A stretch of DNA of 64,000 nucleotides. Origin: Branchiostoma floridae. Lineage: Eukaryota; Chordata; Leptocardii; Amphioxiformes; Branchiostomatidae. The notes under the pieces are model-generated. The model was not told where the DNA came from, searched no databases, and worked only from the letters and a program-made list of their open reading frames with translations. Shown piece by piece: positions 5,256 to 48,694 of this stretch. The translations under genes and the position numbers were made by a program. Position 1 is the first letter of the stretch; each line of letters starts with the position of its first letter. The DNA is taken from positions 14,523,933-14,587,932 of the forward strand of contig NC_049986.1 in NCBI RefSeq assembly GCF_000003815.2, read 5' to 3'.

Positions 5256-6467
5256 CTACACTTTTGGCACTGCTGTGAGGTTGAACGGGTCATTTCCGCG
5301 TCGAGTGCACTTATTACACGCGCTGATCACGAGATTCTTCAAACCTTGTCGAAAGGCACTGTTCGATATGCTGTAGATGATGCAGTTGAAGAAGCTGTTG
5401 CTGATCCCGAGCCACGACAAGCCGAACCGGACGATGGGGTTGAGTTTCATCCCCATTCCCGACTGCACGACACGCACGATCGTGTATGGCAACCACGAGA
5501 CGTAGAAAGCAGTGATGACCGTGAACAGCATCATTGCGGCTCTGCGCTCGTGGTGGCTGCGAGACTGGGACTCGCAGTTTGGGGTTTCCTGCGACTCGCG
5601 ACTGGACCCTTTCCGGTACATGGACTCGCCACGGGAGTTGGTCTGGTGCTTGGCCTTGGTCGTGTACGAGGTCGGGTAGTGGTCGCTCTCGCTCTGGAAG
5701 CGCGTCTCGAGCTCCCGGACCTTCCCGATCTCCTTGGAGTGGTGTCGGCAGATCTTGAAGATGTGGTAGTACGTGAAGCACATGATGACCGAGGCAGGCA
5801 GGTACAAGATGCAGATGATGAATATGGTGAAGTATATGTCGGTGGCCCATGACTGGACCTCGCACTGGAAGGCCTCCATGTCGTAAGTGCTGGTACCCCA
5901 GCCGATCAGGATGGGAAAGCAGATGCAGATGGAGAAGACCCATGCGAAGATGATGCAGATGCGAGTGTTGCGCATGGACATGATGGCCTGGTAGTTGAGG
6001 GGCTTGATGATGGCAATGTACCGGTCAATACTGATGGCTGCCAGGTTGGCGATGGACACGCTGGTCAGCATGGACACAAAGTAGCTGTAGACAAGGCAGG
6101 AAGTGGAGCTGTACGGGCCGAGCTGGTGGAAGGTGACCATCACAGGGAAGATGCAGGTGAAGCCGACAGCGAGGTCTGAGATGGCCAACGTCTGGATGAA
6201 GATACTCATGGTGTTGCGCAGGGAGGGCTCGTACTGGTACACCACGATGACGATAACGTTGCCGATGATGATCAGTATGGTGACGATCAGCATCAGCACT
6301 CCTTCGATCAGGTCCACCACCAGGAGAGCACCTGGTGCCTCCTCCACACAGTTCGTGAAGTAATCCGTGAAATTCCCTGCTGTCTGACAGTTGTATGCCC
6401 CAGCCGTCATGTTCCACTCTCCGTCGGGAAACGGCACCAGGGCACTGTCGTTGGGTTGGGCCGTCAT
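5256..6467 (-). CDS. GPR21/52: Class A GPCR, GPR21/GPR52 group, single exon
   Basis: This is an intact 403-residue rhodopsin-family receptor in the plasma membrane. The N-terminus has three N-glycosylation sequons (N6, N19, N32). Visible landmarks are N70 (TM1), D98 (TM2), the C124-C202 disulfide pair, DRY at 148-150, W176 (TM4), P224 (TM5), WLP at 325-327 (TM6) and N361-xxx-Y365 in TM7, where the usual NPxxY proline is Cys. The TM5 end CFTYYHIFKIC and the TM7 stretch SNSFFNCIIYS closely resemble vertebrate GPR21 and GPR52, which also lack introns. GPR52 is known for high basal Gs coupling; that activity is inferred here. The third intracellular loop, about 241-307, is longer than I recall for the vertebrate proteins. 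C384 and C387 could be palmitoylated. Candidate poly(A) signals on this strand lie near 4398 and 4430. The gene appears to lie in a RABGAP1 intron on the same strand. Confidence 0.93.
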   Translation of the reverse strand: MTAQPNDSALVPFPDGEWNMTAGAYNCQTAGNFTDYFTNCVEEAPGALLVVDLIEGVLMLIVTILIIIGNVIVIVVYQYEPSLRNTMSIFIQTLAISDLAVGFTCIFPVMVTFHQLGPYSSTSCLVYSYFVSMLTSVSIANLAAISIDRYIAIIKPLNYQAIMSMRNTRICIIFAWVFSICICFPILIGWGTSTYDMEAFQCEVQSWATDIYFTIFIICILYLPASVIMCFTYYHIFKICRHHSKEIGKVRELETRFQSESDHYPTSYTTKAKHQTNSRGESMYRKGSSRESQETPNCESQSRSHHERRAAMMLFTVITAFYVSWLPYTIVRVVQSGMGMKLNPIVRFGLSWLGISNSFFNCIIYSISNSAFRQGLKNLVISACNKCTRRGNDPFNLTAVPKV

Positions 6468-7189
6468 TGTTCTGCACTTTTTGTCTCAAAAGACACGGAC
6501 AAAACTGGCAGCGTTTGTGTCCATAGCTCAGGGCATAAACGATGTGTCTCCAATGAGATGATTCCACTGCAAGTGTCTGTCTGCAATCAGTGAAGCAGTC
6601 ACATTTTTCATCTTGCCTTTCACAATTCCTGAGCTTACAACCTTTCCTCGCCCTATAGCTTCTAACTGTTGGATGGATGGGGCAGGAAAATATGACTCCT
6701 ATTTGACTCTGTCGGAAGCCTCTGTTTTTTTTCCAGAAAAGTTCTGCTGGTTACTATTAGCAAACAGCTCAGGCAACAAAATTCATTGCACGGCTTTGGG
6801 GTGCCTCGAGAGACCGCTCAACAAAATCCATCAAAGCACTGTTCGTTGAATGTCTGAATGAAGCAGCACTTGCATCGATTCATGGTCCGGGAGCAGTTAC
6901 CCTTCCGGCATCTTCTAAGCAAAAACCTGGTATGGCCTGGTAGGATCAAAATTCTCTCTACGGCACATACCCCATACCAAACAGCCTTTCTCTGCAACTC
7001 AAAATCTCCTGAGGTAGACCGTACTCACAGTGCACCCGAATCCTACCGTTCCCTCCTCAGAACTTTGCGAGTAACGTCGGGAGCTCGTTTTCTGCGTCCG
7101 CTCCCCTCCAGTCGGCACGGCAAATGCTCAGTCAAATCACCCGTGGTCTACCCATTACCTCATATCCCGGCAGCGCCAAGTGCAGCGGG

Positions 7190-7240
7190 GAAAAAATTAT
7201 GCAAATCCTGGCCTGTCATTGGTGCACGTGAATCATTACT
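7190..7240. promoter_or_regulatory. Octamer, inverted CCAAT and E-box cluster upstream of the GPCR
   Basis: About 0.75 kb upstream of the receptor start codon lie a perfect POU octamer ATGCAAAT (7199-7206), an inverted CCAAT box ATTGG (7218-7222) and a palindromic E-box CACGTG (7225-7230) within 32 bp. The surrounding 6.9-7.3 kb is more GC-rich than its flanks. A promoter or proximal enhancer for the receptor is plausible, but no transcription start can be seen. Confidence 0.35.
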
Positions 7241-8596
7241 GGGAGGGAAGAATGGCGCCACCTCCTTGTTAAACATCGTGGTATGAATAATTGTCAGAGC
7301 GTTATCTCCCAGTAACAGAGAGGGGTGGAATATCTGAGTCTTCAGATGGTTAGACACAACTGCACATCATGCAAATGAACTTTTCTCGGTATTCGGGAAT
7401 GGTTCTCATTGCCCAGATGTCAGTGGTTTATTAATATTGATCACTTCTAAAAATAGCGTCACGCACCGGCGTGGCAGCATCAATAATATATGTGGCCCTC
7501 ATCACCTACATACCAATCCTACCTAGTTCATGCAAGCCTTGATTCCTAGAACTCTGGCAAGGCTGAACGGTGTTGAGACAATAGAAACCGTGCGTGAGAA
7601 TTGTTTTGTCAAGGCTCAGGTACTGACAAAAGGCAGTGAAGGCTGGGCAATCAATGAAGCCACAGCAAACAAGGTAATTATATTCAGGAGATTTAATATG
7701 CACTCAACATTTCCCCATGAGACTCTATTAAAAGCTGAAGCTCTGCTCAAGCTTTGTTGCTCCCAGGGGACCAGGGTAATTGTTTCTTTGGCTCTTTCCC
7801 TACTTGCGCTACAGTCTATAGTCACACGGTGTGTGGGGGCGCTAGGAACTACATTCTATGACTATATGCTATGCTAGTGTACATTATACTGGTTTTGTTG
7901 GGTTGGACTTCTTCTCTTTAGGCAGTGGAAGACGAATTTACCCACTTCTTTTATAATGTGTGGGTTCTTTGATTTTAATAGTAGGATTGATTTTTCATCG
8001 TCAGGAATAGTTGGAAAGTAAGCGTGTATGTTGGATACACTCATAAATAGTTGGTTTGTAGTTTAGTCAGCCAGACCATATTGAGCTTAATGTTTCGTGG
8101 TTTTCATACAACATTTCATTGGCACCAAGTTCAGCAAACTAATAATTTCAAGGAAGTTAGGAAATTTTCCTCACCATTAAAGTTTAATGTTAAATGTCTC
8201 CAGTGTTACCATGGGGTGTCGAAAGGAGGATTCTTATTGAATACATCAATTTGTAACAAAACAAAATTCAGCTATCAAAATTCTACCCTGGGAGACCTTA
8301 CTGAAAATTGGGAAGAAGACATATTATAGATCATCTCTCCACTGCTCCTAACTGGACAAATCCATCTGTATTTTGTTACTGCATTGAAAGCAGAGCATAA
8401 TGAAGAGTGATTCCTAAATGTGCCTGTTTCTTTTGGTTTATGATTTTGATAAATATACAAAAATTATGGACAGTCCAAGCTTGGAGAAAATTTCTTCTTG
8501 AAGAAATATTTCTCAATATCTATTGTCATCTGAAATTTGCAGTACTAACGTTAGTACTGGTAGTACATGTAGACTTCCTCCAAAATAGAAAAGCTC

Positions 8597-8619
8597 ACAC
8601 ACACACACACACACACACA
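8597..8619. repeat. (CA)n microsatellite
   Basis: An uninterrupted CA dinucleotide run of about 11 units. Confidence 0.9.
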
Positions 8620-8876
8620 TGAACACAGTCTCTTTTAGCTTGAGTTATCAAGTTCATACATCAATATTCGCCACACATCTCAGCTCATTACAAGTCTGGC
8701 ATTCCTCAGCATTACCTTCCACCAGCACCCATTTGTCTACGTGACCCAGTAACCCCTGCCCTCTGTGGTTCCAGTTTAAACTCAGATTTATTCTCAGGTG
8801 CCAGATTACTTCTAGGGGATAACAATGTGTAACACTACCTGATACAGAACATTTCTGTACATTTGTAGTATAGTCA

Positions 8877-9172
8877 CCAAAAAGCAGTTACTCAAGCAAC
8901 TAGATATGATTTTGGAAATGGTCAGACGTTTCAGACAGCCATCCAGTGTCTTTCATCAGTGACACTGGAGAAATCTTGCTGGAGAGAGTTATTAGAATTT
9001 ATATATCCCAGCTGTGAATTGATATGCAATAGAGGTCTAGTTGGATAGGAGGTTTATCCTAACTATGAATTGACATGCGAAAATGGGAAGACAAATTTTT
9101 AGTGGTCCAAACCTTCTGACTGTTTCCAAAATCATATCCAGTTGCTTGAATGAGTAACTGCTTTTTGGTGTA
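8877..9172. mobile_element. Foldback element family B, copy 1
   Basis: The left arm is AAAAAGCAGTTACTCAAGCA followed by ACTAGATATGATTTTGGAAA. The right arm is its complement, TTTCCAAAATCATATCCAGT then TGCTTGAATGAGTAACTGC. The loop holds a shorter hairpin, GTGTCTTTCATCAGTGACAC. It is related to the copy at 31159-31293. Confidence 0.75.
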
Positions 9173-9179
9173 TCTTATC

Positions 9180-11500
9180 ACCTAGATGTCTGACCTTTAT
9201 CGAGTACATTACAATCAGTTTCCGTGTACTAATCAGAAGCACCCACTAAATTCAGAGGAAATGATGGTTGCACCAAAGACTGAGGGTAAACAAAAACAAT
9301 GTGGAAATACCCACACACACAGACAGCCAAAACTATACAACCATTTTTCAAGCCTTCTTGCCTTTAACCATTTCTTATAACCTTTATTAATGCAATTTCT
9401 TTTTCAAACATTCTTGTGCAGAAGGACATAATTATCTGGGAAAGGGCTTGCTCAACAAACTCTGTTACAATAAAATTTCAAAACATACATAAGTCACAGT
9501 CAGGGTGCAGTAACTCTATCCATTTACTGCCATGATCAGAATGTAAATTCCACTGCCTTTTTTATGTGATGACCAGGGAATCTGACAGGATGCTGTACCC
9601 GTCAGTAAAAATTGCTGGAGCATTCACATAAACGTACAGAAATTGGAACCCTTTAACCTGTTCACCCCTGTTAAATTTGAGATATTCAACTATTACAGTT
9701 GCTTTGACTGGCATGCGGACCATGTTCACACCAGACAAGGCTGGGCATTCACAAAGATTACTGGGCCCTGTATGGAGGAAACATTCATCGACTTTATGGC
9801 AAAAAGGTGTGACGAGAATAAAGAAACGCAAAAGGTTCCCACCTGCATATAAAAACGACCTTATTTCATGGTCTGAAAACTGTAAACCAGGTCGTACTCA
9901 TAAGGGGCAGCTATCATTGCTAACCTGCTGGTAGTGGTGGGTACATTTTAGTTAATAACGTTGTCAGGACCCCCTCCACCATTCAAGGATCCCTTTACAC
10001 ATGTAATTTAAAAACTAAATAAATCATGTGACCTACTGACAAAGGAGACTTTTCTAAACTATTGTAGACTTTTTTTGGCTAATATTTCATTTGTTAACAA
10101 ATGAGATCATATATAAGCAACTTCATCATCAAAATCAAGTTGACGTTATCTGTGTGGTCCTGAGATACAGGTACATTTGTATATCAAACACTCCAAGTTT
10201 TATCAAATGCAGCTTTTAGATAATGGACAATGTCTTAATGTTTTAAGTACTATTTCGGCTTTTTCCACGTTTTACGTATTGCTTGAAGGTGTGATCATAT
10301 CTACAAAGCTGTTTCCAAGAAACACATTAGTCATTTCCAGTTGCTGACAGCTGGAGTGCTGCATTGCAGTCAGACATCCATTACAAGTCCTCTACTCATT
10401 CATCATCAAACTGATGGGCGGGTCTCATTCCCTGAAGTAATATTTTTGCAAGCAAATACATTTTGAAACATAGGACTGATTGGGACCAAACTTTTTGCTA
10501 TACTGGAGCTGACATCTTCATGTTTTATACTGCTGTATTGTATCATATTTTAACTATTATATCATATTTTATCTTTTTATTACTCCCCTACTTGTTAGCA
10601 TTTTACTTGTTATATTGCATCTCTCAATGGGCCTTATTTGCTGTGAACTTTGCAAGAAGCTTCAGAGTCAAGAGAAAAGAAACCTTGCTTCTCCATGAAA
10701 ATCTAATAACCAATTTCCATCAGTCTCAGTTTTTCCCACAAAGCATTATATTCTCACATGGGCAATGCTCATCCTCTGTTGCATGTATTTAGATACAAGG
10801 ATATATGGAAAATCAGATGAGAATTTTAATGGGTAATAGCACAGTGCATTAAAAGGTACTCTAAGCTTAAGGAGCTTGAGGTTCAATTGGCTCAATCTAC
10901 AGCTACATGTCTCCTCAAAAACATCTTATTTCAAAGCTTTAGATGCAACATTATTGATTTTTAGACAGAGTTTTGAGTTTACTTGCATCATAAGGGTGCT
11001 CTGGAGGGAGCTGTACTTGAATATGTATTACTTGACACACTGGTCCAGAAGAGAGGATATTTGGTCTCTTAAGAGCCTCTGTTCTCGATGAGCGACAGAT
11101 TGGGAACACGCTGATGAAGAGGGATATGCACAATCCATATTTCCCACCGACTAGTGAAGACATAGAGGACATGATATCCACACCAAGGTGTACAGACACC
11201 TTCTAGAAATGGGGATTGGTTTGGGGGATTATCCTTAAACCGATGGACCATTGAGACCAACTTACAATCATATAAATATCTCTGCCAAACCAATCATAAC
11301 CCCATATTTGCTGGAAAGGTCTAAAAATCAAAAACAGTGGACACATGATCTACCTGTGACCTCTGACACATATATGAAGGAAGTACAATGTATTACTGTG
11401 ACCTGGTTAGGAAAAAAAACCCTGATTACTAGTACTGTTATCATGAAATATCACCATCATTGTAACTAATACTACCAGCACTTGTACTTCCCATTCCTCC
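9180..11500. other. No gene or clear element seen
   Basis: This is AT-rich sequence with only short unrelated open frames. The open frame at 10463-10792 is hydrophobic (YHILTIISYFIFLLLPYLLA) but reflects a T-rich tract and has no family features I know. Confidence 0.3.
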
Positions 11501-11510
11501 CTACCGACTT

Positions 11511-11660
11511 AGTGAAACTACCAGAGGGGCGAGTAGAACAGAAAGAAACAACATGCCGCCACCCGGGATTGAACCTGGGCCGGCAGATCACAAATCGAAC
11601 ATGCAAGCCGTTCGGCGAAAAGGCTTAAGCCGTTAGGCGTCTTCGGTTTAGCAGTCCTTG
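11511..11660 (-). mobile_element. tRNA-derived SINE, copy 1
   Basis: On the minus strand this carries a perfect B-box-like GGTTCAATCCC (11565-11575) and a decayed A-box part, with TGCCGGCCCAGG between them. It continues into GGGTGGCGGCATGTTGTTTC. A second copy lies 118 bp away in the same orientation. It is not a functional tRNA: the cloverleaf is incomplete. Confidence 0.6.
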
Positions 11661-11778
11661 AATACCACTGTTACATTACTCCCCCTTTTCTTGTCAAGAT
11701 TCGTCCTCGAATCTCCGAGTTCGATTTCCCTGTGTGGCACATATCTAGCTTGTTACTCACAGGGTCGACATGGGAACC

Positions 11779-11930
11779 AGTGAAACGACCAAAGGGGCGA
11801 GTAGAACAGAAAGAAACAACATGCCGCCACCCGCGATCGAACCCACGCCGGCAGATCACAAATCGAACGTGCAAACCGTTTAACCAAAAGGCTTAAGCCG
11901 TTAGGCGTCTTCGGTTTAGCGGTCCTTGAA
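11779..11930 (-). mobile_element. tRNA-derived SINE, copy 2
   Basis: Same structure as 11511-11660. The A-box-like TTGGTTAAACGGTTT is better kept here, and the B-box-like GGTTCGATCGC lies at 11833-11843. The two copies share the outer flank CGAGTAGAACAGAAAGAAAC. Confidence 0.6.
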
Positions 11931-12547
11931 CTGTTACATAAGCACCACTGTTACATAAGCACCACTGACTTTACCGGGTACGTAGCATATGCTTCATGTC
12001 AACCTGTGACTACATGCCATAACCAGAGTCTTCCATCATGCTATTTTTGTGTCACAGCTCCAAATTTCACCTGTTCTAACTCAACATTCACCAAGCTTAC
12101 ATGAAGCACTGCTGAGTGTCATGCTTACCACATCTTACAGGACACTTCTATTCTTAGTGTCATGTTTCTTCTTTAGCTAGATGCATCAAATTTGTCATGG
12201 TAAGAATTCAGTATAAGCTGAAAGGATCTGAGGGGGGAAAACACATGTTTTACTCACTTCATAAAAAGTAATTGATAATAGGGGATTTTACAACTTACAA
12301 CACCCATTCGTTTTGTAAAAGTAATCAATATGGGGTTTTACAACCTATGGTACACCCTTTTCTTTAGGCAACCAGTTCATAAAACATTCATGAATCAAAT
12401 ATTTATTACCTTCACCTGAACCTTTCAAATGATCTTAAAAATTCTTCCTTTTTCTCCCTCTGACTGATATGGCTAAAGAGGATGTCTTTTGCTATTTAAG
12501 CTTACACAAAACCAAGGAGGTTGACAAAACATAAAAATGACAAAACA

Positions 12548-12764
12548 TACTGTAAATACAGAAACTTTCGCAGTGGATTAAAGTTTGCGGTTTTCACGGT
12601 GGCCGCTTCACTGCGAATTTAAAACCACCGCGGACATTTTTCCATGGCAGTAAGAGACTACAGTGCATGGTGCTATGGTACCGCAAACTTAAAACCACCT
12701 CGAAAAGTCCTTTTTCTTGCTTCCGCGAAATTAAATCCCCGCAAACTTAAATGCATTTACAGTA
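12548..12764. mobile_element. MITE family C, copy 1
   Basis: The ends are TACTGTAAATACAGAAAC and TTAAATGCATTTACAGTA, flanked by TA as in Tc1/mariner-type elements. The inside has repeated GCGAA.TTAAAACCACCGCG motifs. There are three more copies in the window. Confidence 0.75.
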
Positions 12765-15586
12765 GTCATATAGTGCAAGGTGACATGGCCTTGCATGATA
12801 TAAAATGATATGCACCAGGCAACCTCCGATACAAATCCAAGCCTGTATATAATATTATACATATGCACTGTAACATGATTGATATGCATGTCCTTGGGAG
12901 AGGCATTATCTTTGACCACACGGCTATCGACAAAGTCATCATGGAAAGATTTACGATTTGTCTCCATGTCATTGTCAGTCATGCAGACAGCTGCTGAATT
13001 ATCTTGTCCTTCTTCTTGAGGTTAAGTAAGGACACGGTCTGAAGCATGTTGCCCAGATGGCAGACCATCCATCTATGTCAAGCTCCTGGGTGGAAGTTAT
13101 TCTAAAGATTTCATGACTTGATGTACATGTATATGGTTTATAGACATGTAGATAGGACCTTAAGGTCTGCCATATGTAACGCATACAAAGTAGAAGTTTT
13201 CAGAAAAAATAAAACGAAATCCAAATAGCAGTTCAAAACTCCAACTTTATGTTTATCTTTGGTATTATTTTGATTTGTGATCTGCAAACCCAGCATAGTA
13301 CATGTACACTACATAAAAGAAATGTATATGTACATGTATGGGCAGATAACAAAACAACATGGCATTGCATATATTGATAAAATTATTATTGAAATATGAT
13401 AACAGCAGCTTGAAAATATACCTCACTGACAAAACTGTGTATATCATATCAAAGTATTTTACTTGTCTGATCAGTTTCTCTTGTACCTCACCCATCGTTT
13501 ATTTTCAACCCTGTTTCTCTCTTCCTGAATGGCCCCCATGCATGTGCCATCCTGCCTTTGATCTTGAGAGTCTTTAGAATTCCTCCTTCCCCGAGGAGAG
13601 GTAACTAATCTCGAAGGTCCCATTAACTAGGATTAAATGAAAGAGGCGGAAGGGGAAGGTAGGAGCCATTAGAGACTGTTCCTGAGCAAAGTTGTTTGGT
13701 TTTCCTGCCATTTATCTTGTAAGTAAGGGCCAGGGTAATCCTTTGGAGACTACAAAATACTGGCTAATGTTTTTCAAGGGCTTCACTGGAATAGACATTG
13801 CCACCTTTTATCAAGGACAGAAGGTGGGGATCGTACAAGTGGCACTTTTTTTACCTCCATCTGCGTAAATTATGTTCATCAGCAATGAATCAATCCTCAC
13901 ACTATCGTAACACACAGTTGGAACAATATAAGTGGCCATCGGAGAATTGATTTGACCTTTGACATGGTACAGTTGGAACTATATTGGCGTTAGGATTTAT
14001 TGCACACTTGTGCAGCAATAAGGCAATCGACCACTCAACAGCTGCCGAGGACTAACCCATCTATCATGGTCAGGTGCCCCGGGAAGGACAATTATATGAC
14101 CACATGGTGTCATCAAAGGTTTATCTATTTATGTAGAATTTTAATATCTAATTTTGTTTTGTCAAACAGAATTGGTTTTAAATGTGACACCTCCAGAACA
14201 AAATGTGATACGTAAGGACAAAGATGAAATGAAAGATGAGACTAATAAAAAACATAGCATCTAGATTTTAGAACTCAAAAACATAGAAATCATGGCCATA
14301 ATGAGAATTTAATAGGAGGAATAAAGCAAACCAATTGTTAATACAAATGCCAATCTTCATCTATTGTACACACACGCACAAAGCAGAGATTTGGAGCAGG
14401 GTAAGTTGACAGGGAAACACTGAAATCATGTGCACAGAAAGGCAATGGAGACTTTATCATGTGAATGGCACATACCATATTTTATGCACATGCATCGATT
14501 TCAGCCTATATCATTGTGCTTCTTCCGTGGGCATTCTAAGAAAGGAGTAGCCATGCCCTCAGAAAGGTTTAAAGGTTTTTCCATGAGTTCCATGCTGGCA
14601 TCGTCTTTAGAAGATCTTTGTTCTAGACTGACACTCTGACATCATCCCTTCTGCTCATCTTTCATGTGGGCACATCCATTCAACCAAGGAGCTTTCATGA
14701 TGAAATCTCCTTGATCCAAAACAAAGCAGCACACACTCTGAAGGAGGGTAAAACCACCATATTAAGTACAAGGTACATGTATTTAAAAATGCTAAGATGT
14801 AAAAGGATTTCCTGCATGGTACAGAGATACTTTAGTTACAGGGTGGACATGTTGGGAGCACAATGTGTAGAGAGAGAGATAAAAGCTAGGCATTTTCTTT
14901 ATAATATAATGCTCTCATTTGTTACTAATACAAATGTCCTTCCTTGCAATGATGACATTTCAACCAGGGCTAATGTACGGACAACTTTTTGAATTTGGGT
15001 TACTGGACCGGAAAACTGCAAGTCAGATCATTTTATTATGTTTTCCCTTTTCCTTGATAAAATTCTGACTTTGGCAGTGTGACATTTCATGGAAACAATG
15101 GTAACTAACCTTATCATAAATACGAATGTACTAGCAAAATCATTCTAAACATTAAATCAAATGTGTTCCTTTGATATCAAAATGATAGTCCAACTTTATA
15201 AGCTTTGATGGAATTCAATTGTTAAAATGATTAGAAATAAGATGCTCTACCAAATATCCTTCCAAGCATTGAATTCTGCAACATTCTTAAATGTTTCCTA
15301 GAAATTTCACAACTTTCTGTTCTTTTGAAAAATGAGATGTCCTTTTTACTGGATTTTCCATCACAGTAGGCAAAGGCACAACGGATGTACTCTCAAAAGC
15401 AGAATTTCAGATTCCTGAGCTCCTGACAGCTTACGATAAGGCTGGCCAATATTTCATGGACTCATGCCTCCCTACACTGCAGCAGAATCAACCATACATC
15501 ATCCCATAGTTACAGAGCAAGCAGAAATGCCATTTATCTCTGCTATGACTCTGTATGAGCTGTACCCCAGCATGAGACCTAGGATA
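12765..15586. other. No gene seen
   Basis: AT-rich stretch between two family C MITEs. I see no conserved exon and no clear element. Confidence 0.3.
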
Positions 15587-20292: not shown

Positions 20293-20299
20293 TTCACTA

Positions 20300-32750: not shown

Positions 32751-32751
32751 C

Positions 32752-32948: not shown

Positions 32949-32959
32949 TTATTTAGCCG

Positions 32960-35165: not shown

Positions 35166-35174
35166 AGAAAGACA

Positions 35175-35920: not shown

Positions 35921-38900
35921 CTACAGGAGAACATGGGAAACTCATCAACACTATTCCAACAAGACTTACACAAACTATCAAAAGTACTTCAGGTTAATTT
36001 TCATGGGCTTATATTCATAAAGGTGAGATTTATGCTTTTACAATTCCATGAGGATTAGAATCATTTATGTTAGATTGCTTCATTGAAAGCTTATAATCAA
36101 GAGGACTGACTGTTGTCAAAAGTTATCAAATGTTAGAAAGGCAAACAAAATTTTGTTGTTTTCTAAATAAGCTGGCTCGAATCAATGATTTTAACCAGCA
36201 AAAAAGTTTCTTCTATCATGAAATGTGCAACAAAAAGCACCAAGAGCACTTTCTCTGTTGGAAATGAAAGGGGTGGGTGGGTTGGCTTGGTTCACCAGGC
36301 ACGCCAGAGTCTGGCGCGACAGAGTCCGGCGCGACAGAGTCCGGCGCAACGGAGTCCGACCAGCACGTCAAATTACAAATTACCAAAATACAAGCCAAGA
36401 GCTCTGTTCTTAGAATATGAAACAGATAGTGTAGACAATTTCTCACACAGGAACACAGAGCCAAAAGAGAATTCCTCACCTTCCTGCAGAGCTGGTGCAG
36501 CTGTTTGGGGCGGGTGCTGAGGTTCTGTCTCCACTTGGCCAGCATGTCTCCCCACGTCTCCAGGATATCACCTTCACACTCCTTACTCACATCACCCGAA
36601 CCACTCAGCAGGGGCTCGTCGTTTTCTGAAGAGGAAGGAAAACTACACGTTAGGCTGAAGAATGAGGAACTGAAGAGCGTTGTCTTGAACAGTACCGTAG
36701 GAAAATGCCAGGTAAACCATTTTTGAACCTGGCCTTCCTTTCCACAACCGCTACAAACCTACCAAAAATCACAAAGTTCCTTCCACAATTTCTAGAGCTA
36801 TATGCTGTTGACCTACATAGAGACCCATCACCCAATGGAATAACCGAAAACATACCCTTTTTGGCGAAGGCAACTAGTGGTCATTTTTTTAAACATACAA
36901 TCACAACATTTGTTTTCAGCACCAAGGACAGGGTGTTTATAATTGTGCATATACTAGTTTTAACAATCGTTTCCTGTTTTTAACAACTGATGTAACACGG
37001 CAGCACAATTCAGGGTTGTGATAGTCACCATGCTACCTGTCCCGTGAAGTGTGTGTCAGAACAAATAAACCAGTATGATGATAAGTATGCCTAGGATCCA
37101 TCAGAAAATTTTAGATCAGGATGGTCATTCCAATTTCAGTTACACATGTCCTTAACAAAAACTGCAGATGGGAAACCTCTGGTGGCTTGGTCCTGTGCTG
37201 ATTTATTGTGGGGCTTAATACAATAAATAAAGGGGTTCCGTTGCAGAATGTTTTGTTTTGCGCATTCTTTTTAAAACACTCAAAGAACAATATAATGACA
37301 CAAATGTGCTAGTATGGTGAAGTAAATGTTGATACCGTACCGATTGACTAATCCAGAATATTTCCAATTTGAATGCTCTAAAATTGTGTTGGGTGCTTTT
37401 AACACATGTCAGGAAAGGTTACATGTAGGTTAATACCTTTATAGCTCTGTCAAATGTACAAATACAACTGTATTCTATTCTTCTCTGTAATTAGCTTCAT
37501 CAGAATTTGTAGATCATAGAGAAATTAATTTCTTGAACCTCACTTTCCCATTTTTCTTCCTTTGCTTCTACATCAATCACCAGGCATCCAGAAATTTCCA
37601 AATATCTATTTCAGCTCCTCCAATTTGATTAGAACTACAATTTCAGTAGAAATGTCTCATGTGATAGTGAGTAGCCAGTTGCATTCTTATCATCTTACTT
37701 GTCAGTGTCACAACGGTCTACATGTAACAAGTGCTAATCAATAACAGACAGTAACAATCTCGAAGTATTTTGTGTTATATACAAGCATATGTACAGTACA
37801 ATATAACTTCAGCTATTTCTCTATCCTCAGCCTTTTCATTACTTCTCTTCTGTTCCTTGATAATCATAAAATGGGCACAGAACAAATCATTTTTCCTATA
37901 ACACATGATTGTACACGTAATTTTGGACGTGCCATGCCTCCACAATTCTGATTCAATTACAGGCTACATAGAAGGTTGATGCAGTTATATATAAGAAATC
38001 AATTACTATAATGATAGGGATTTTTTCCTAATCATAACGTCATACATGTTTGATGTAGACTTCTATATCCCAGTGTGAAATTCATGATATTATCATGATA
38101 GTCATCTTCAACTACAAGATGCTATCCTCAGTGTGATATTGCACATACATGTACCGAGTGGGAGGTAACAAATCCTAAAAGAATCACAAAGGTCACCTTG
38201 AAAATCAGAACATTTGATTTTACAGTGACAGAGAATATTTCAAGAGTCCTGACATTGTAAAAACATACCTTTAGAATATTCAAGAACTGTAGTCTGCTCT
38301 TGTGTATAGACGACAGTTTCCTGATTCATGGTGTCTACATGCAGCTGGAGGCATTTACACTGAAATAGCTGTCCCAAGTTCAACATGCTTCGCCTCCCTA
38401 ACTGATTTAGCATTCTGAATGCCTCACGCCAAGACAAGACAAAATCCAATATGATTTGGGTCTGATGTCTTCTTTCCCATTCAACGTGCTCTCATGTAAT
38501 CAAAATGGAAGAGAATATGTCAAGAAATACTTCCATATTTCCGTTTTGATTTCTACTCTGGCAGTTGTAAATTGCATCTCTTGAAAAGATGATTATGAAG
38601 ATAACTATCGTTCCCTGTACTTTCAATCTGGAACGGTCTTGACACTGAGCCAATGTTATGCAGCAAAAAGCCATGATTAGTATTCTTTACACACAAAATC
38701 ATTGTAAGACTGACTGCACATGTTGACGTACACTGGACACCACCTATCCATCTGCCTTTGTAACGCTGACCTACACACGTGGGAGGGCAGTGAGTTTTGG
38801 CTGTGAGGAACATTGATGAGTAGCAGCTGCAACTCAAACTGTTGTGTCTCATCACTTGTCTGAGGGAAATTTGGGGGATTCTTTTAAACCGACTAATGTC

Positions 38901-38985: not shown

Positions 38986-41900
38986 TACACACACACACAT
39001 GCATGCACATACACACACACCAACTTACCTCAATATCGTTAATACATTTGACCAATGCAAAAGTCAAGGAGACCTATTCCATCCAAATAAGTAATTTTCA
39101 ATAAGGTAATTCAGAGATTATGTCTGAGTCTTCTTTGGAAATATACTTTTCCTATTTTTTATAGCTTAGCAACTGTCAAGGCAAAGTACGAATCTTCATT
39201 TCACATCAATTCACAATGTACAAACACTGAGATTAAAATGGAACCTACCATCTTCCTCTTCAATGGCGGGGGTGGCAGGGGTAGGAGAGGTTTGAGTGAC
39301 GGCAGGCGGGCTACGCGCTGGAGACAGCGGAAGATTCATGCTCGCTTTTTTTCTGTCAATCTCTGACTGACTCTCCAGGCTCAGGACTTCATAAAGCTTT
39401 TCATTTGGACTGCTTCCTTCAATCTACAACAAAAATCAATTCTTATTTCATTAACATTGTAACAGGACAACACTATGGCTAACTGTACATGTGTCCCTGG
39501 GTTTGAATCCGAGCATATCTTATAGCTGTAGAATTATGTTGTTTTCAGATCACAGATCACAGAAGTGAACTAGAAGGCTTACATAACTTCATCATCATCT
39601 TGTCAGGATGATTGTACAGAATGATGTACATGGTTTCTTCCATTGTCTTCAAAAATTTCCATCCAATTATTTTGTCCATAACCGCAGGTGCTGTCAAAAT
39701 CTATACAATGTATGTCTGCCAAGATTCATTTGTAAGTATTTGAGGATCAAAAACAGAAAATACAGTTATCCAAATGGTGTATTACATAACAGCTATACAG
39801 GGAGGTCTGACACCAGCTGTTCAAGACCATAAAAAAATGGCTCAAAAGTATAATCATAATGGCAGGGCTCTTAATTTTTTCCAGTCCCACTCATCGACCC
39901 AAGATGTTCATTTACGTTGCTCAATCTGTCATTTTATATAATATCTTAGCCTACAAAAACACATTTCATCAATTTCAAGTCATGAAGTTCATCTTTATGG
40001 GAGGGAAAATATTTCTTGCCCCAAGAGTCAAAGGACAGAATGAGTGGTCCTGGAGACAGCCCTGCATTGTGGTACTCTGGTCTCACCTTACAAGTAAATT
40101 CATTTGAAGACCATAAAAGAAAATACAGTTCACTTCAAAGGATGTAAAATATGTTTACTAAAAGCTATACAGGTTTGTCTGACACAAGCTGGTCCATCAC
40201 TTATTTTTGTTCAAGACCATTAAAACAAATGGTTCAAAAGTATAATCATTATGGTCCTTTGGTCTCACCTGCTTGAGCCTCAGGTTGTACTGTTCGTGAA
40301 AAGTCTTCTTACTGAAGTACCAGAAGCGCTCGCTGGCGGGGTAGATCTGAGCCTTGGTCTCCACGACAAACCGTACCGGCTCCTGGATCCCCGTGATCAC
40401 AAGGTCAATGGCGATGGTCATGAACACCCGCGTGTCTGCAGGAAACAGAGCAGTATTGTGGGTAAGATTCTGATATAGAGGTAACAAGAAAGCTTTTGAA
40501 AAAAGCTGGCTGGTGCATATTTTGAAAAAAAAGCCTGGATATTAAACAAAATCACAATCATGAAAAGAGAGCGGTTAAACATCAAAGTCTTGAACTTGTC
40601 TATTTTCTATCAAAAGACATTACTTGGGATTTGTTGAACAAAGGAAAAACACTTGTAGTGCAAAGTAGAACCAATCATTATTGCCCCCAGAAAGGTGACA
40701 GCCACCAAAATGTCGGCTGTTGTAATTCTTGAGTTTTGGACAGAGAACTTTGTCATTCAGTCATTTACCAGCCTGATGACATTATTCACAGATACTGTAA
40801 TCTTGTATGCCAGACAAGAGAGTAATATGGCCTAGTGTTTATCATTTTGGATCATGTATGGGGGTTCAAATTCAGTTTTATCTGTTGGTATACTACCCTT
40901 ATTGGGATTGCAATCCATAGGAGGAAACAGAAAGCAAAGTGACTTTCATTCTTTAATAAAAGGCACACCTCAGGCATGTTAAGAACTCACAGAAGTTGTT
41001 GATAAGTATAGGCCTGGGGTACAAACCAATGGGAGATGTCACGGTTTCTTACACATCTTTTTCTAGCAAACTGTAAGTACAGAACTGAGTGTATAATAAT
41101 GCTACCATAAGACATGTACAGGTATGTAGCCTTACTTTTTGGAGTCTCAGTGTTGAGCACCACAAACTGTGGGTCGGAGGGATTCCAGTTGCCAGAGATG
41201 AGGTAAGACTTGCCATCTGCACTGTTCCCCATCGAGTCCTGGGAAATGATACATGTTAGTCATCATACATGTACTTTTGCTGTATGGAGTAGTCTCCATG
41301 CAGACATTGTGGTGGAAAATTATTAAGGTTTATTTCAGAGTGCAATGCAATATTTACCTAACTCTACAATTACAACATCAGTTAAAAGACTGAACTGTTG
41401 GCTTGATTTCTTCCTGGGTCTCTGTGCTGTTGATATTTTGCCTACCTGTACAATTCTTTCCATTGGAACACAACTTTGCCTAACACTACTGACTGAAATG
41501 AATGACATGACAAAGCATTCGAAATAAAATATTTTTGTCTTGATTTCTTTTTCCAGAATGTTTTTCCCATTAGTTCTTAAGTATTATTATTGTGTTGTTA
41601 ACAAATGAAGCAGCAGATATGGCTGTACATGTACCTCCTTACTTCTAGAAATTCTATGACATTCCAGATATAGCTGTGGTAGGCCTTCAGAAGTATATTG
41701 TAGGTAGTAAGTACACCATAGCCTCTTAACTACACTCTTCAAAAAAATTATGCAACAGCCACCAGGTTTGCTGTTTCATATTTTGTCACCTATTAGTATT
41801 ACCCAACTACCACCAACTTTGGTAACAGTAGCATTCCCTAGAACACTTGAACCCTACCACACTTTTCACCATGTGCTGCTTTGTCTCAATCTCTCTACAA

Positions 41901-44900
41901 CCTGGAACCTTACTCCACCTCTCATCAAGCATTACACATGTACAGTAGACCTGACTCTGTCTCCCTAAAAACCACAAACCGTATAGCACCTCTCACCCAG
42001 CACCTTAACAGACCTGACCACTTCTCTCTTAACTTGTGGCACCTCTCACCTACCACCATGACAAACCTGACAATGTGTCCCTACATGAACCCTACAGTGT
42101 ACATGAAACTTCCTGCACCTCTCACTCAGCACCATAACAGACCTGACTGTGTGTCCCTACATGAACCCTACAGCACCTCTCACCCAGCACCATGACAGAC
42201 CTGACTGTGTGTCCCTACATGAACCCTACAGCACCTCTCACCCAGCACCATAACAGACCTGACTGTGTGTCCCTACATGAACCCTACAGCACCTCTCACC
42301 CAGCACCATAACAGACCTGACCGTGTGTCCCTACATGAACCCTACAGCACCTCTCACCCAGCACCATAACAGACCTGACCGTGTGTCCCTACATGAACCC
42401 TACAGCACCTCTCACCCAGCACCATAACAGACCTGACCGTGTGTCCCTACATGAACCCTACAGCACCTCTCACCCAGCACCATAACAGACCTGACCGTGT
42501 GTCCCTACATGAACCCTACAGCACCTCTCACACAGCACCATGACAGACCTGACTGTATGTCCCTACCCCCCATCCAATCTTATCAGTGACAGGTACAGCT
42601 GAAGAGTGGACCGGGCTCACCATGTCCAACAGGTGCATGTCGCTGTGCTTCACGTTCCTGCCTGGACACAGCAGCAGTCCAAAACACCTGCAGGGGTATA
42701 TAGGTAAAAAAACAAATATCATAATATACAATGTACTGTATTAACAAAATATGGCAAATTCTTATTCTCGGCTTGTACTTGCTGCCAAAGAATGGTTCTG
42801 AAGGTAGTAAAAAATGTGGGTATGGTCTCTAACTAGCTGTTTGCCAATCGTAGAATCAGATTACCAAAATAAAACATTGAGGGGGTTCCCTGATTGTCTG
42901 ACAGCTGGTTAGAGGCCATATACAAAAATGTGGAAATCTCAGCCCAGTTTTCAGAGCCTCTCCAAGGTATACAAGTGTTGTATAGGCTGTGGTAGAGGCT
43001 CTGCGGAGGAGAATGTCTTAAACTTGACAATGATATCAACATTTTTCTCACCGCTCAATGGTGAGATCCTCGTTTGTCATCTGCTGGACATTGATGTTGA
43101 TCTTCTTCTGAAGATCTTTCCTCAGCTTGAAGAATTGCTTGTCCTGAATACATACAAAGAGGATTATTAAGTACATGCACAACATACAGTTCTAGGTAAC
43201 TTGCCTTTCCCACAAATACTTTGCAATAACACTTGTTGTCCTTTATAATGACTATGTGCTGGTTACTGGTTTAGGCAGCAGATAAAAAGGTAAAGGTAAT
43301 AACCTTTTTCAGACCATTTCCGGTTGATATCTTGCAAAGTTGATAGTCACCTGTTAAGTCAATCCTTCCACAAATGTGGTAAAACTGAATTTAAAAAAAA
43401 AACTTACCCGAGGCACAGTACTGTAGGTCGCTCTCCCATCATCCTCTTTGATCTCCAGGGTAACATCAAAACGAAACAGATCCTCATCGTCCCCGCCTGG
43501 TTCATACATGCTCAAGCTGCGGGGAGACTTGGGGACGGCCTTGAAGGCTCGGGCAAAGCTGAACATGATCTTGGGAACCTGGAAGCCAATTAATAGATAT
43601 CAATGTCTTCATGCAATCAATCAATCAATTAACATATCCATCAATCAATCAATCTCTTGCAGGAATCAATGGTTGATGCATGGCATCTGTAGACATGTCT
43701 CTTAAGGGTGTTCTATTCTCGGCACAGGACCTCCAGTTGGCTCTGGTAACCCCTAGCACACTGAATAATTTCCTTTTGTCATCATAACAACATTGTTAAT
43801 GTGTTGTGTAGGTCCATCAGATTTACCAAACCCCAAACCAACCATGATCTTACCTATACTTGCAAATGTCATTGGCTCGGACCACACAAAAAATTACCTT
43901 TGTTTCATCCAACTCCACTGTTCTAAGTGCCAAAGGTCAGTCCATGAGGCATCACAACTTATCATTACCTCCTTATACATGTTCCTACAAAACAGGCTGC
44001 CTTAATTAAGTTCCTAAGTAACTGTACATTTAACCTAAAGGCAGCTCTTGGCAGTTAGATAATCAAAACGTCCTTTGTAACTGAAAAGCAAGTGTTCTTG
44101 ACATCAAACCATTTCAAACCTTTGGTGAAAGGTCATGTCTATCCACTACAGGTGCAGTTAAGGGTAGCAAACCTGTCTGTGACAAGACATGTGAGTTGGT
44201 GCCAAATCATGTCATTCTGATGTCAATGTGCCAATATGTGAAACATGAGAATCCTGAGAAAAACAGAGATTAATCCTCAAATATCAAAACAATACCAAAC
44301 TGTCTTTACTTCAAATCTTGAAATCTCCTTCCAAAGAAAATATGATTAACTAGAGTTCCACGAACACATACCTTTGCCAAATAAACCAGGTTTGTTATGT
44401 AGAATGTGTTACTCATTACATTTTATTTTATATGCCTGGAGTTGGTTCCCATTGCTCATACAAATTAGATCCCTATTTACATAATAATGTTAAATTTTAT
44501 CAAGCATCACTTAAGTTATCAGCATACCCAAAATCATGATGATACTTTCATCCTTATTGAAACCGGCTCCTGCAGTTCAAGGAAAGACGTTAGCGGACCC
44601 AAACATACACCTCTTACTCTCTGCCATCTTTTTCAGTTACATATGTGACAAATTTGAAAGTCCTATCACTGAATGCAGTGGATTTATCAACTTCCGTCAT
44701 TAATTATGCAAATTAGCTGTTAATTTACATAACATAACTAGTATCTCATTGTGTAAGTTTTTACTTAGGCTATCTACATACCAAAAATCATGACGATCCG
44801 TCAACACGTTCATATTTTCCCATTAATTATGCAAATGAGATCATCATCTGCATAATTAATAATGTATTGATATTTCTTTCTTTCTCAGCTACAAATGTGA

Positions 44901-47900
44901 CAAGTTTAAAAGTCCTATAAAGGAATGCAGTGGATTTACAAACTTTCCTCATTAATTATGCAAATTAGCTGTCGATTTGCACAATTAGAATTCCATCATG
45001 TAAGTCTTCCCTTCGGCTATCTACATACCAAAAATCATGACGATCCGTCAACACGTTCATATTTTCTCATTAATTATGCAAATGAGGCCTCATTTGCATA
45101 ATTAATATGCATTGATATTTCTCTCTTTCTCATCTATATATGTGACAAGTTTGAAAGTCCTATCGTGAAATGCAGTGGATTTATAAACTTTCCTCATTAA
45201 TTATGCAAATTAGTTGCTGATTTGCATAATCAGTATTCCATTATGTACATTGTTACCTGGGCTATCTACATACCAAAAATCATGACGATCCATCAACACG
45301 TTCTCCAGTTATTCTCGTCCAAAGTTTGAAAGGAAATCGGTGACTGCAGTTCCAAACAAGCCGCTAGGGGGTCCAAACTTACGGCACTTACTCTCTGCCC
45401 CAAGGGCTATCTACCACTAAAAAATCATAACCACAGCATGTCCAGAACACGAGATATCAAAAATTGAGGTTCTGCTGCAGTACCTTAGCAAGCCGCTAGG
45501 GGGCCCATTATCAAACTTGACCTTTGTTTTCCCGACCCCTACCCACCTACCAAATATAATCGGGATACATCAAAGGCTTCTCGAGTTATGCTGTTAACAG
45601 ACACACACACACACAGACACACAGACACACAGACTCACAAGCCTAAAACATAACCTTAGCCATTCTGGCAAAGGTAACTAATCAGACAGTTATATATGAT
45701 ATCTACACTGTATTAGTCTCCAAAGATACTGTAGGTTGCTGCAGCAATATAGATAACTTCCAACACACAAAAACCTTAGATATTCACACACAACTAAAAA
45801 CCATATACAAATGTAGTTTATACTTAAACAGTAGATCTGACACAGACATTTGGATACAGAACATGTAATATGGAACGTGTTACCTGTAGTCCAATCTGAA
45901 TTTCATATGTGATCCATTTTCTACTCAACAGGGCTTTTCTGGCACCTAATTACTGAGCTGGAGTGATACTCGACACATACGTGTGACTAATTACTGACTT
46001 GGAGTGATACTCGACACATTCGTGTGACTATCACTTAGACAGGCTTAAGGCAAACTAATGCTATTACTTGGTTTGTGATAAATTCCAGCCAGAAGTATGA
46101 CAACGCTTTGTCATTTTTAAGTTGATTTGCTTGCAAGGAATGAATATGAAGCAACATTTAAATGTAAAGCGTAATTTCCAACACAAAAATTTGACTCACA
46201 TGTCATGAACTTTTTGAGTCCAATTTTTGAAAATCACGGTACTGTTCAACTTTGTTTCAGAATGATTTCCACCATCACTGATGAACTCTCAAGACATGGT
46301 ATGAACAATTTTAGACTGTCAATTCACATTCTACACCTGCTTGCTTTCTCAATATACTTAGTTGTCACTTAAAAACATAGCTTGAAATAACTTTTTAACC
46401 AATTTACACCTAAAGGGCACAACCAATATGTTTTTTTAAAAATGCTATACAAAAATTGTACCTTTCAATCATCATGAAACTACCCTATAAGTGGCAGCTA
46501 AGTTGCTCCAGTCTGAGTCATCTTGTGGTACTTGATAGTCTGTCCTGTTACTTCCCACTATAAATGACAGATGGGCCATCTCAAACACATAACTACAAAG
46601 GAGACACATCTAAAGTGGGCTGGACATATACGAGTTATCCCAATAATGTCACGGTGACGCAGTGGTAGGCAAAAAGCAGTAATTTGCAAAACAAGTGATT
46701 TGATCTGCTTATATAAACATCAATTTTTAGATCCAATCTACTGACATCCTGGTAGGCACCAGCCTTCAAAATACCCGCAGATACAAACAACAACAGCAAG
46801 TCATCATACCTGAAAAAGCTTTACCATGGCAAACTCCACAAAACAGTGAAAAATTGTTACTAAAACTTACAGCTTCCAGCAGCTGGCACCTGTACACGTG
46901 GCACTGGAACAGGTCCGAGTTGCCATGGCTACTGGTGAAGGCAAAGCAGTCCTTCTCCCTCGTCTCCTGCTTCCCACGGCAGCAGAACAGGATGCGGTGG
47001 ACGCGGTAGTGCGCAATCTCCGCACCGTCCGGCTCCAGCACTCTGGAAGCACAATGTTTGGGTTTGGGTTAGTCAGAGAACTACAGCAGCTGCACTTTAG
47101 ATCAATTCTGCTAGGTGACCACAAAGGCCCATTGTGGAAACTTTATAGCAAAAGTGCCAGATTGTACATTTTGTATCTTGATGTTGACTCTAGGGCAACA
47201 ACCGGTTATTGACACACAGTAATAGCACATGTTCTATTAATTCTATATAAACGTACTGTACATGTGGACAATCTGCTTCCCACTTCAAATATGACCTTCC
47301 TGACAGACAAGCATGGTCTACAAAATGTCTGCCAGGCCTAAAACTTCCAGAAGTGCTATTATCATGATCAACACGATAAGTCACAAGAGTGCTATGACAG
47401 GATGACTGGGAATCAAACCCAGGACCTTCATGTCCACCCACCTGACAGTTCCCTCCGAGGTGGTGGGCACAGACAGCACCACGTCTATGGACATCTGGGA
47501 TGACTCCCGCAGGATGGACATGCAGCGCTGAGCCTCCATCTCGCTGCGGGGGGCGTTCACGGCGGAACAGCCCAGGTACGTCACGCCGTTAAAGATCACG
47601 CACTCCTCGTCTGCCCCAGGGGTGGGGGGCTCTGATGTGGAGCGTGCACGAGCTGTGGCAGGGACGGTACAAGAAGGAACAATCAGCTGTTGGGCAGGCT
47701 TATTACAGTCAAACCTGGCTGGTCAAACACCTGGCACAACCAGCCACCTCCAGCCATATGCCACATGAAAACAGTCCCATCCAATTTTATATATCTCTGG
47801 TTTGCAACCGTCTTATTAAGAATTCACCATAGGTCTCCCATATCTTTACATATTTTAAGTAGCTATGGTATGCAATGTGAATATTCAGAATGCAAATCAA

Positions 47901-48694
47901 AATGTTACCATGAGTCTTACAATGCTCGTTGTTGCCTAGTACAAACATTTAAATGTTAATGCTCACACTCTTATGATTCATGTTGACAGATGATATGATC
48001 ATATGACCAATCAAGGGCACAATCACAATCAAAGAATCATAATCATTTACCTTCTTTTCCTGCCTTCTCACCCCCTTCCAGCTCAACCCCACTCTCACTC
48101 TTGGTGGCTGAGTCCGTCTCAGCTCGAGGACGATTGCTGAGAGTCTCCGTCGTGTCGGAAGCCTCGCTGTTCCCAGACGCCATCCTGGCTCGCTGTCGGT
48201 TCTCGATGTTGCTCGGCACGGAGCCATCGTCTTCTGATTGGTCGCTCAGCACCTCTTCCAGGTGCTGCTGCAGCTCTTCCTCATTTCCATTCCCACAAAT
48301 CTGAGTTGGAAACAGAGAAAATGACCTTTCTTGCTTTCTTACTCTTTCTTACTCATCTTTCCTTCACTGAACTTTCAATGATTTCATAACAAAAAAAAAT
48401 CAAATACATGTACGCTTAAATTCAATTGCAATACAAAGCAAGGCATAGTGGAACAAATGGAAGAAAGACTGATAGCAACTGCAAGAGGTTTGTTCCTATG
48501 GCTGCAGGTAATGATAATGATAATCAAAAACATAAATTTGTCCTGCAAATTTGGTAAGTTAAATTTACCTTCAACCCAAGCTCCTCACTTGACTTCCCAG
48601 CAGCCTCCATGTTTTGTTCAGTATGTTCTGGGGTAGGGACTAGAACGTACTCCTCTGCAGACAGGGAGTCATTAGAACTCTTGTTGTCCTCCAT
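35819..48694 (-). CDS. RABGAP1: RABGAP1/RABGAP1L orthologue, 5' two-thirds (12 exons), partial at the 3' end
   Basis: This is a Rab GTPase-activating protein with a PTB domain followed by a kinesin-like (DUF3694) region and a TBC domain, expected to act in endosomal and Golgi traffic. Twelve coding exons with GT-AG junctions join in phase to exactly 594 codons. Residues 1-125 are an acidic, low-complexity N-terminus containing EEYVLV. The PTB domain spans about 146-266 (VTYLGC to FARAFK). The next region spans about 284-453 ([35 protein letters not shown]). A Ser/Pro linker follows, then [15 protein letters not shown] and the TBC start [17 protein letters not shown] at 561-577. Human RABGAP1 is about 1,070 residues. 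The catalytic IxxDxxR and YxQ motifs and the C-terminal coiled coil are not in this window, so the gene continues beyond position 1 or is incomplete in the assembly. It appears to be the single pre-duplication counterpart of RABGAP1 and RABGAP1L. Confidence 0.93.
36307..36361. repeat. 15-bp GC-rich tandem repeat, about 3.7 copies
   Basis: The unit is GAGTCCGGCGCGACA, in the RABGAP1 intron just downstream of exon 11. On the minus strand it reads as SDSVAP-type repeats if the intron were retained. Confidence 0.8.
36480..36625 (-). CDS. RABGAP1: RABGAP1 coding exon 11, pre-TBC segment
   Basis: This exon has 146 nt and encodes [36 protein letters not shown] and KQLHQLCRK, almost the same as vertebrate [20 protein letters not shown] and ILETWGELLSKWHLNL. 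The acceptor is ctcttcag and the donor is gtgaggaa. Confidence 0.96.
36626..39248. other. RABGAP1 intron 10, nothing else recognised but a CA tract
   Basis: Intron between exons 10 and 11. A CA-rich microsatellite occupies about 38930-39020. Confidence 0.6.
38930..39020. repeat. CA-rich microsatellite
   Basis: Interrupted (CA)n with CAAA and CATA variants, in RABGAP1 intron 10. Confidence 0.9.
39249..39423 (-). CDS. RABGAP1: RABGAP1 coding exon 10, Ser/Pro linker
   Basis: This exon has 175 nt and encodes [19 protein letters not shown] followed by a Pro/Thr-rich tract and EEED. Vertebrate RABGAP1 has LYEVVCLESESERERRK at this place. The acceptor is gttgtag and the donor is gtaggttc. Confidence 0.9.
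40269..40435 (-). CDS. RABGAP1: RABGAP1 coding exon 9
   Basis: This exon has 167 nt and encodes [40 protein letters not shown] and NLRLKQ, matching vertebrate FMTTAVDLVITEVQEPVRFL. The acceptor is tcctgcag and the donor is gtgagacc. The exon ends in phase 0. Confidence 0.96.
41136..41238 (-). CDS. RABGAP1: RABGAP1 coding exon 8
   Basis: This exon has 103 nt and encodes [18 protein letters not shown] and [10 protein letters not shown], closely matching vertebrate SSDGKSYVITGSW and VVNEETPK. The acceptor is tttcccag and the donor is gtaaggct. Confidence 0.96.
41990..42545. repeat. 58-bp tandem array in RABGAP1 intron 7
   Basis: Unit starts (CACCATAACAGACCTGACCG...) fall at 42130, 42188, 42246, 42304, 42362, 42420, 42478 and 42536, all exactly 58 bp apart. 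Diverged units precede them from about 41990. The middle units are nearly identical, with a single T/C change (GACTGTGTG, then GACCGTGTG) marking two blocks. The array ends about 75 bp from the acceptor-distal side of exon 7. Confidence 0.93.
42621..42687 (-). CDS. RABGAP1: RABGAP1 coding exon 7
   Basis: This 67-nt exon encodes [20 protein letters not shown], matching CFGLLLSPGKDVRNSDMHLL of the vertebrate protein. The acceptor is cccctgcag and the donor is gtgagccc. Confidence 0.95.
43052..43143 (-). CDS. RABGAP1: RABGAP1 coding exon 6
   Basis: This exon has 92 nt and encodes [17 protein letters not shown] and [12 protein letters not shown], matching the vertebrate FKLRQGIDKKIVIYVQQTTNKELAIE segment. 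The donor is gtgagaaa. The exon ends two bases into a codon. Confidence 0.94.
43408..43578 (-). CDS. RABGAP1: RABGAP1 coding exon 5, end of the PTB domain
   Basis: This exon has 57 codons in phase 0. It holds the PTB C-terminal helix ([15 protein letters not shown]) and the start of the following domain ([20 protein letters not shown]; vertebrate [20 protein letters not shown]). The donor is gtaagttt. Confidence 0.95.
43612..43655. repeat. (CAAT)n-like microsatellite
   Basis: Two runs of ATCA units separated by about 15 bp, just upstream of RABGAP1 exon 5. Confidence 0.8.
44355..45690. repeat. Tandem array of about 240-bp units rich in TTATGCAAAT, inside a larger dispersed element
   Basis: Three head-to-tail units (starting near 44630, 44885 and 45125) share TGTGACAA.TTTGAAAGTCC, AATGCAGTGGATTTA, CATTAATTATGCAAATTAG and CTACATACCAAAAATCATGA. 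The outer parts carry ACCTTTGCCA (44370) and TGGCAAAGGT (45669) in opposite orientation, as if terminal repeats of one element. CA-rich tracts lie near the right end. It sits in RABGAP1 intron 4. Confidence 0.7.
45945..46032. repeat. Tandem duplication, about 42-bp unit
   Basis: Two copies of CTAATTACTGA.(C/T)TGGAGT then GATACTCGACACAT.CGTGTGA in RABGAP1 intron 4. Confidence 0.85.
46871..47042 (-). CDS. RABGAP1: RABGAP1 coding exon 4, PTB domain
   Basis: This exon has 172 nt and encodes [20 protein letters not shown] and [20 protein letters not shown], matching the PTB core of RABGAP1 (ILFCVRG, DCFAFTESH). The donor is gtaagttt. The exon ends in phase 0. Confidence 0.95.
47442..47652 (-). 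CDS. RABGAP1: RABGAP1 coding exon 3, start of the PTB domain
   Basis: This exon has 211 nt and encodes [19 protein letters not shown] and [17 protein letters not shown], nearly identical to the first strands and helix of the vertebrate RABGAP1 PTB domain. The acceptor follows ctgccacag and the donor is gtgggtgg. Confidence 0.95.
48051..48300 (-). CDS. RABGAP1: RABGAP1 coding exon 2
   Basis: This exon has 250 nt and ends one base into a codon. It starts [18 protein letters not shown], like the vertebrate IVGNGSEQQLQ segment, then runs into a Ser/Glu-rich, probably disordered tract. The acceptor is ccaactcag and the donor is gtaaatgatt. Confidence 0.88.
48569..48694 (-). CDS. RABGAP1: RABGAP1 coding exon 1
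   Basis: This exon has 42 codons from the initiator Met ([19 protein letters not shown]...). The donor gtaaattt follows position 48569. The exon extends 17 nt upstream of the ATG to an acceptor at 48712-48713. In the joined frame a TGA lies just upstream of the ATG, which supports this start. The segment resembles the SEDFVLV segment of vertebrate RABGAP1. The exon ends in phase 0. Confidence 0.88.

Follow-up and report, generated by a model that had tools for sequence, protein, structure and literature searches.

The 64,000-nucleotide stretch of contig NC_049986.1 analysed here (the window, numbered from its first letter) contains on its minus strand a class A receptor gene of the GPR21/GPR52 type, encoded in one coding exon at 5256..6467, and, upstream of it, part of a RABGAP1 gene that runs from 48694 to 35819. 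A first-pass annotation, made from the letters alone, had proposed that the receptor is nested in a RABGAP1 intron as in vertebrates, and we followed up this proposal by homology searches, alignment, a receptor tree, base composition and a comparison with published loci.

The receptor open reading frame begins with an ATG at 6467 and ends with a stop codon at 5258-5256, giving 403 unbroken codons (403 aa) without an intron; its assignment draws on translation, PDB matches, Pfam and the tree. In a phmmer search of the PDB, ranked over the best 60 of 688 distinct matched sequences, the first nine were GPR21/GPR52 chains (E 9.5e-73 to 1.2e-63; three of them GPR52 fusion constructs), followed at rank 10 by the beta-3 adrenergic receptor (E 1.6e-34), which confirms the intact GPR21/GPR52-group receptor of the first-pass annotation. 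The protein hits the Pfam family 7tm_1 (E 1.3e-50) and carries a DRY motif, SWLP in transmembrane helix 6 (TM6) and, at the position of NPxxY, NCIIY (5373-5387, minus strand). A structure predicted from the single sequence (mean predicted local distance difference test score 42.2) was too poor for use.

The host comprises 12 coding exons on the receptor's strand, which total 1782 nt or 594 stop-free codons and have canonical splice sites throughout (GT donors 12/12, AG acceptors 11/11). Coding exon 1, with the start codon (48569..48694), was placed by open frame and splice donor and has no human protein match, while exon 2 (48051..48300) was placed by splice sites and a weak protein match (30.8 bits). 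Exons 3 (47442..47652) and 4 (46871..47042) cover the PTB/PID region and were identified by Pfam, protein match and splice sites; protein match and splice sites define exons 5 (43408..43578), 6 (43052..43143), 7 (42621..42687), 8 (41136..41238), 9 (40269..40435), 10 (39249..39423), 11 (36480..36625, start of the TBC domain) and 12 (35819..35920, TBC domain, phase 0/0). This last exon ends with VLITK, part-way through the TBC domain, in phase 0 and with a canonical donor, and the window accordingly holds the N-terminal region, PTB/PID, DUF3694 and the first 63 TBC residues, roughly the first half of RABGAP1. In the family's domain order of PTB/PID, DUF3694, TBC domain and coiled coil, what follows these residues would fall outside the window. 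Of the last 471 residues of the human RABGAP1 query, 251 were checked against 4nc6; the N-terminal part of the query matches 11 of the 12 coding exons at 30.8 to 91.7 bits and misses coding exon 1. Pfam recovers PTB/PID (E 1.1e-05) and DUF3694 (E 1.8e-29), and the 63 TBC residues did not reach its TBC model. In the PDB these 63 residues match RABGAP1 (4nc6, E 1.6e-24) ahead of RABGAP1L (3hzj, E 5e-21), which, together with the 12 spliced coding exons, bears out the naming of the host as RABGAP1. Over 62 columns the TBC start is 71.0% identical to RABGAP1 and 62.9% to RABGAP1L, which are 71.0% identical to each other, and it has six sites in common with RABGAP1 alone and one with RABGAP1L alone. 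A 58-bp minisatellite (42100-42566, 8.1 copies at 97%) begins 55 bases after coding exon 7.

Coding exon 12 and the receptor ATG are separated by 29,352 bases, in agreement with the earlier placement of the receptor on the host strand, 29 kb downstream of that exon. When the last 471 residues of human RABGAP1 were searched against 1-35818, the best score was 22.7 bits, which 23 of 60 shuffled queries equalled or exceeded (top 26.2); the missing RABGAP1 exons were thus detected at no more than chance level between the receptor and exon 12, where the proposal required them to be absent. Whole TBC exons in 1-35818 would hardly have been overlooked, given scores of 30.8 to 91.7 bits for the host exons matched in the window. 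With no RABGAP1 remainder above chance in this interval, an unbroken host gene should have its remaining exons beyond position 1, and in a working host that continues there the receptor would be intronic. The phase-0 intron that follows coding exon 12 of the host (minus strand) would then occupy 1..35818, contain the receptor, measure at least 35.8 kb and leave the window. That the host continues past the receptor, as the first-pass annotation held, is supported indirectly by the half TBC domain with its canonical donor and by CpG depletion that carries on beyond the receptor, while the continuation itself is something we infer. Alternatively, the second half of RABGAP1 could lie elsewhere, through rearrangement or misassembly, and the receptor would be a mere downstream neighbour. 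This reading takes support from the absence of any further detected exon in 35.8 kb and from intron length, since the intron proposed here would exceed each of the other 11 coding introns in the window (0.26-3.3 kb) at least tenfold, but the open frame and canonical donor at exon 12, the CpG depletion that runs to the window edge and the mouse guest, which is also within the gene (PMC4813635), make it very unlikely.

The ratio of observed to expected CpG (CpG o/e) is 0.39 on the 3′ side of the receptor (1-4800; bootstrap 0.26-0.48), 0.39 on its 5′ side (8000-35800; bootstrap 0.32-0.45) and 0.37 in the host body (35819-48694; bootstrap 0.29-0.44). It is 0.50 at 48695-52000 and 0.60 at 52000-57270, and jumps to 1.19 (bootstrap 1.08-1.30) at 57973-64000. 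The host-like depletion persisting past the receptor agrees with a host that continues there. Judged by base composition, the profile as a whole reads as a mosaic methylation pattern. Mosaic CpG is an invertebrate pattern, and together with the moderate sequence identities it points indirectly to an invertebrate source. A CpG-rich patch at the receptor was considered as a sign of separate regulation and dropped, such patches not being unique to the receptor: of the 65 further 500-base windows within 1-35500, one exceeds a CpG o/e of 0.84 and two more have at least 20 CpG. The guest coding sequence itself, at 0.84, is only moderately above the pooled host exons at 0.61. CGTCA-rich repeats occur within the CpG-high end, at 58668-58768 and again near 63400-63480.

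The receptor tree was built from six rows, three of them aminergic outgroups (ADRB2, HRH2 and HTR1A), without GPR211 or invertebrate rows and with part of intracellular loop 3 omitted. GPR21 and GPR52 group together at 99.7/100, the window receptor branches outside their split, as the nesting proposal had anticipated, and the three are separated from the outgroups at 100/100. The window receptor is 45.0% identical to GPR21 (134/298) and 46.0% to GPR52 (133/289), compared with 73.7% between GPR21 and GPR52 (213/289). It has residues in common with both at 114 sites, with GPR21 alone at 14 and with GPR52 alone at 18. One additional residue following the proline of TM5 is present in all three and in none of the outgroups (0/3). 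Given the branching, the identities, the site counts and the added TM5 residue, the receptor pattern fits a single gene predating the GPR21/GPR52 duplication. At the NPxxY place GPR21 has NCVIY and GPR52 has NPVIY, while the three outgroups have NP; with NC in the window receptor and GPR21, and NP in GPR52 and the outgroups, the state would have either reverted in GPR52 or originated twice.

A third vertebrate clade, GPR211, has been named under GPR21,52 in gar, ten fishes, coelacanth, an amphibian and a lizard (PMC6504862). Were the window from a vertebrate, the receptor could be this third paralogue, nested in RABGAP1 or in a third host copy, and the locus would be silent on invertebrates; GPR211 could likewise fall outside GPR21+GPR52 in a six-row tree. 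Three observations speak against this without being decisive, namely the mosaic CpG o/e, which is 1.19 over six kilobases and 0.37 in neighbouring gene bodies, the host TBC start, which at 71.0% is no closer to human RABGAP1 than RABGAP1L is, and a neighbouring MRPS2 gene whose product shares 145 of 210 residues (69.0%) with the best-matching MRPS2 chain in the PDB. We consider a GPR211 origin unlikely.

Vertebrate pairs of this kind have already been published, individually. Mouse Gpr21 sits between exons 13 and 14 of Rabgap1, with Strbp on the opposite strand (PMC4813635), and this locus involves the same guest and host families as the window, although the window receptor lies outside the GPR21/GPR52 split. 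Vertebrate Gpr52 is a single-exon gene in the same orientation within a Rabgap1l intron, from human to zebrafish (PMC4372774); the paper also refers to Drosophila homologues of the two genes. The Gpr52 locus shares with the window a one-exon GPR21/52-family receptor on the same strand of a RABGAP1-family intron, and differs in that the window receptor falls outside GPR21+GPR52, comes from a genome of invertebrate appearance and has one known host flank. The host start codon lies 3.7 kb from the start of a head-to-head neighbouring gene, which leaves space for a non-coding first exon. If exon 1 is non-coding, as we take that of mouse Rabgap1 to be, the window guest, which follows the 12th coding exon, would follow exon 13, the mouse position. 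This "same intron" comparison rests on one published exon number (PMC4813635) together with our own assumption about exon 1, and no RABGAP1 exon map was found among the literature matches listed. Among the matches listed for nested genes with amphioxus or G-protein-coupled receptors, the sole comparator was a paper on LRRTM genes in alpha-catenin introns (PMC3933685). That nested pair was also multiplied by early-vertebrate duplications, but its guest is on the opposite strand and was not found in lancelets or tunicates by that study, whereas the nest described here would predate vertebrates.

Together these results make it probable that the nested receptor-host pair predates the vertebrate genome duplications and was copied as a unit. 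In an invertebrate deuterostome, probably a lancelet, one GPR21/GPR52-type receptor gene would lie inside a long RABGAP1-type intron, on the same strand, splitting the TBC domain after VLITK, and host and guest would have duplicated together to yield RABGAP1/GPR21 and RABGAP1L/GPR52. The receptor presumably uses its own promoter, while the host pre-mRNA would read through it and the receptor would be spliced out with the intron. Host read-through fits the effect of a cassette placed in mouse Gpr21, which reduced Rabgap1 mRNA downstream of the cassette and not upstream (PMC4813635). The nesting would persist mainly because a break that frees the guest will seldom spare the host. In this account we infer the source lineage, the copy number, the mode of transcription, the cause of persistence and the host exons located below the window. 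Because it is hard for a gene to escape from a long intron without damaging its host, persistence is expected without shared regulation, and the earlier suggestion that such long maintenance points to shared regulation is not supported.

Shared cis-regulation, or a functional link between Gs-cAMP signalling of the guest and the Rab function of the host, could still have helped to keep the ancient nest, as an addition to the explanation above and not exclusive of it. In mammalian cells, Gpr52 and Rabgap1l show knock-down epistasis and joint mRNA lowering, for which co-regulation was proposed, and the nesting of GPR52 in RABGAP1L was interpreted as functional, both genes affecting huntingtin levels (PMC4372774). 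Against this, topological lock-in predicts equal persistence, and CpG-rich patches occur elsewhere in the intron as well as at the receptor. Rabgap1 mRNA was unaffected by a 29-bp deletion in the mouse Gpr21 coding sequence (PMC4813635), so that in mouse the host is not under the control of the guest protein; this result bears on the guest protein and not on shared control DNA. We regard this addition as doubtful, while the huntingtin epistasis (PMC4372774) leaves shared regulation possible.

Several points weigh against an ancient nest copied as a unit. The host exons are known on one side of the receptor only, and its 62 comparable columns do not put the host outside the RABGAP1/RABGAP1L split and lean towards RABGAP1. 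CpG depletion does not single out the host: 53-54 kb (0.33) and 56-57 kb (0.24), beyond its coding span, are also low, and some kilobases inside the inferred intron reach a CpG o/e of 0.6-0.85. The receptor tree, with six rows, three aminergic outgroups and neither GPR211 nor invertebrate rows, is small, and GPR211 as a third vertebrate set beside GPR21,52 (PMC6504862) is the chief caution.

Should the nest be older than vertebrates and have been duplicated whole, its age would be fixed, the nest could be considered apart from functions specific to vertebrates, and an invertebrate with a single copy would provide a test bed for guest-host shared regulation. Among the literature matches listed, no title or abstract opening links both vertebrate pairs or reports an invertebrate arrangement, in a search that lay outside most subscription papers and bioRxiv preprints; the arrangement may be known elsewhere, and genome browsers may show it. 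Within that literature, PMC4813635 alone names at least three of RABGAP1, RABGAP1L, GPR21 and GPR52 as whole words, and it mentions GPR52 solely for 71% identity; PMC4372774 names neither GPR21 nor RABGAP1.

A further reading, which we offer tentatively, is that exactly the same phase-0 intron, after VLITK, houses the guest in an invertebrate as in the two vertebrate pairs, one pre-duplication event having fixed the receptor there for more than 500 million years, and that the built-in agonist of extracellular loop 2 (ECL2) was perfected later, in vertebrates. In GPR21 the agonist-like motif of ECL2 makes the contacts K170-D176, H174-Y268, F178-F105 and C181-C102 (PMC9839698). In our alignment the window receptor carries T in place of K170, E in place of D176 and D in place of H174, so that two of the four published contacts are not kept, and it retains F178, paired with Y for F105 (an aromatic residue at 3.28). 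The ECL2 cysteine exists and is offset by one place relative to GPR21. The later perfection is suggested because an ancestor-like receptor is without two of the four contacts and has this offset cysteine; the built-in agonist of the window receptor may differ or be weaker.

The putative long host intron also contains an 18-bp minisatellite (21931-22223, 15.9 copies), open for about 175 codons on both strands, and a CpG-rich pair of 152-nt repeats (91% identical; 11511-11662 and 11779-11930) with a tRNA-like stretch seen by eye, perhaps a young short interspersed nuclear element. ARAGORN called no tRNA at this repeat pair, and scans with Rfam, for tRNAs and for bacterial-type promoters were uninformative. 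Beyond the host start codon, a bZIP gene on the plus strand (KRGRKPSKIDMKAKLERSRQSARECRARKKLRYQYLEEM; 52430-52495 and 55564-55866), which we take to be CREBL2-like, is arranged head-to-head with RABGAP1. It is followed on the minus strand by MRPS2 (mitochondrial uS2m; 57276-57972, with a likely first exon at about 58228-58354), identified by its PDB match to a chain that is presumably from pig.

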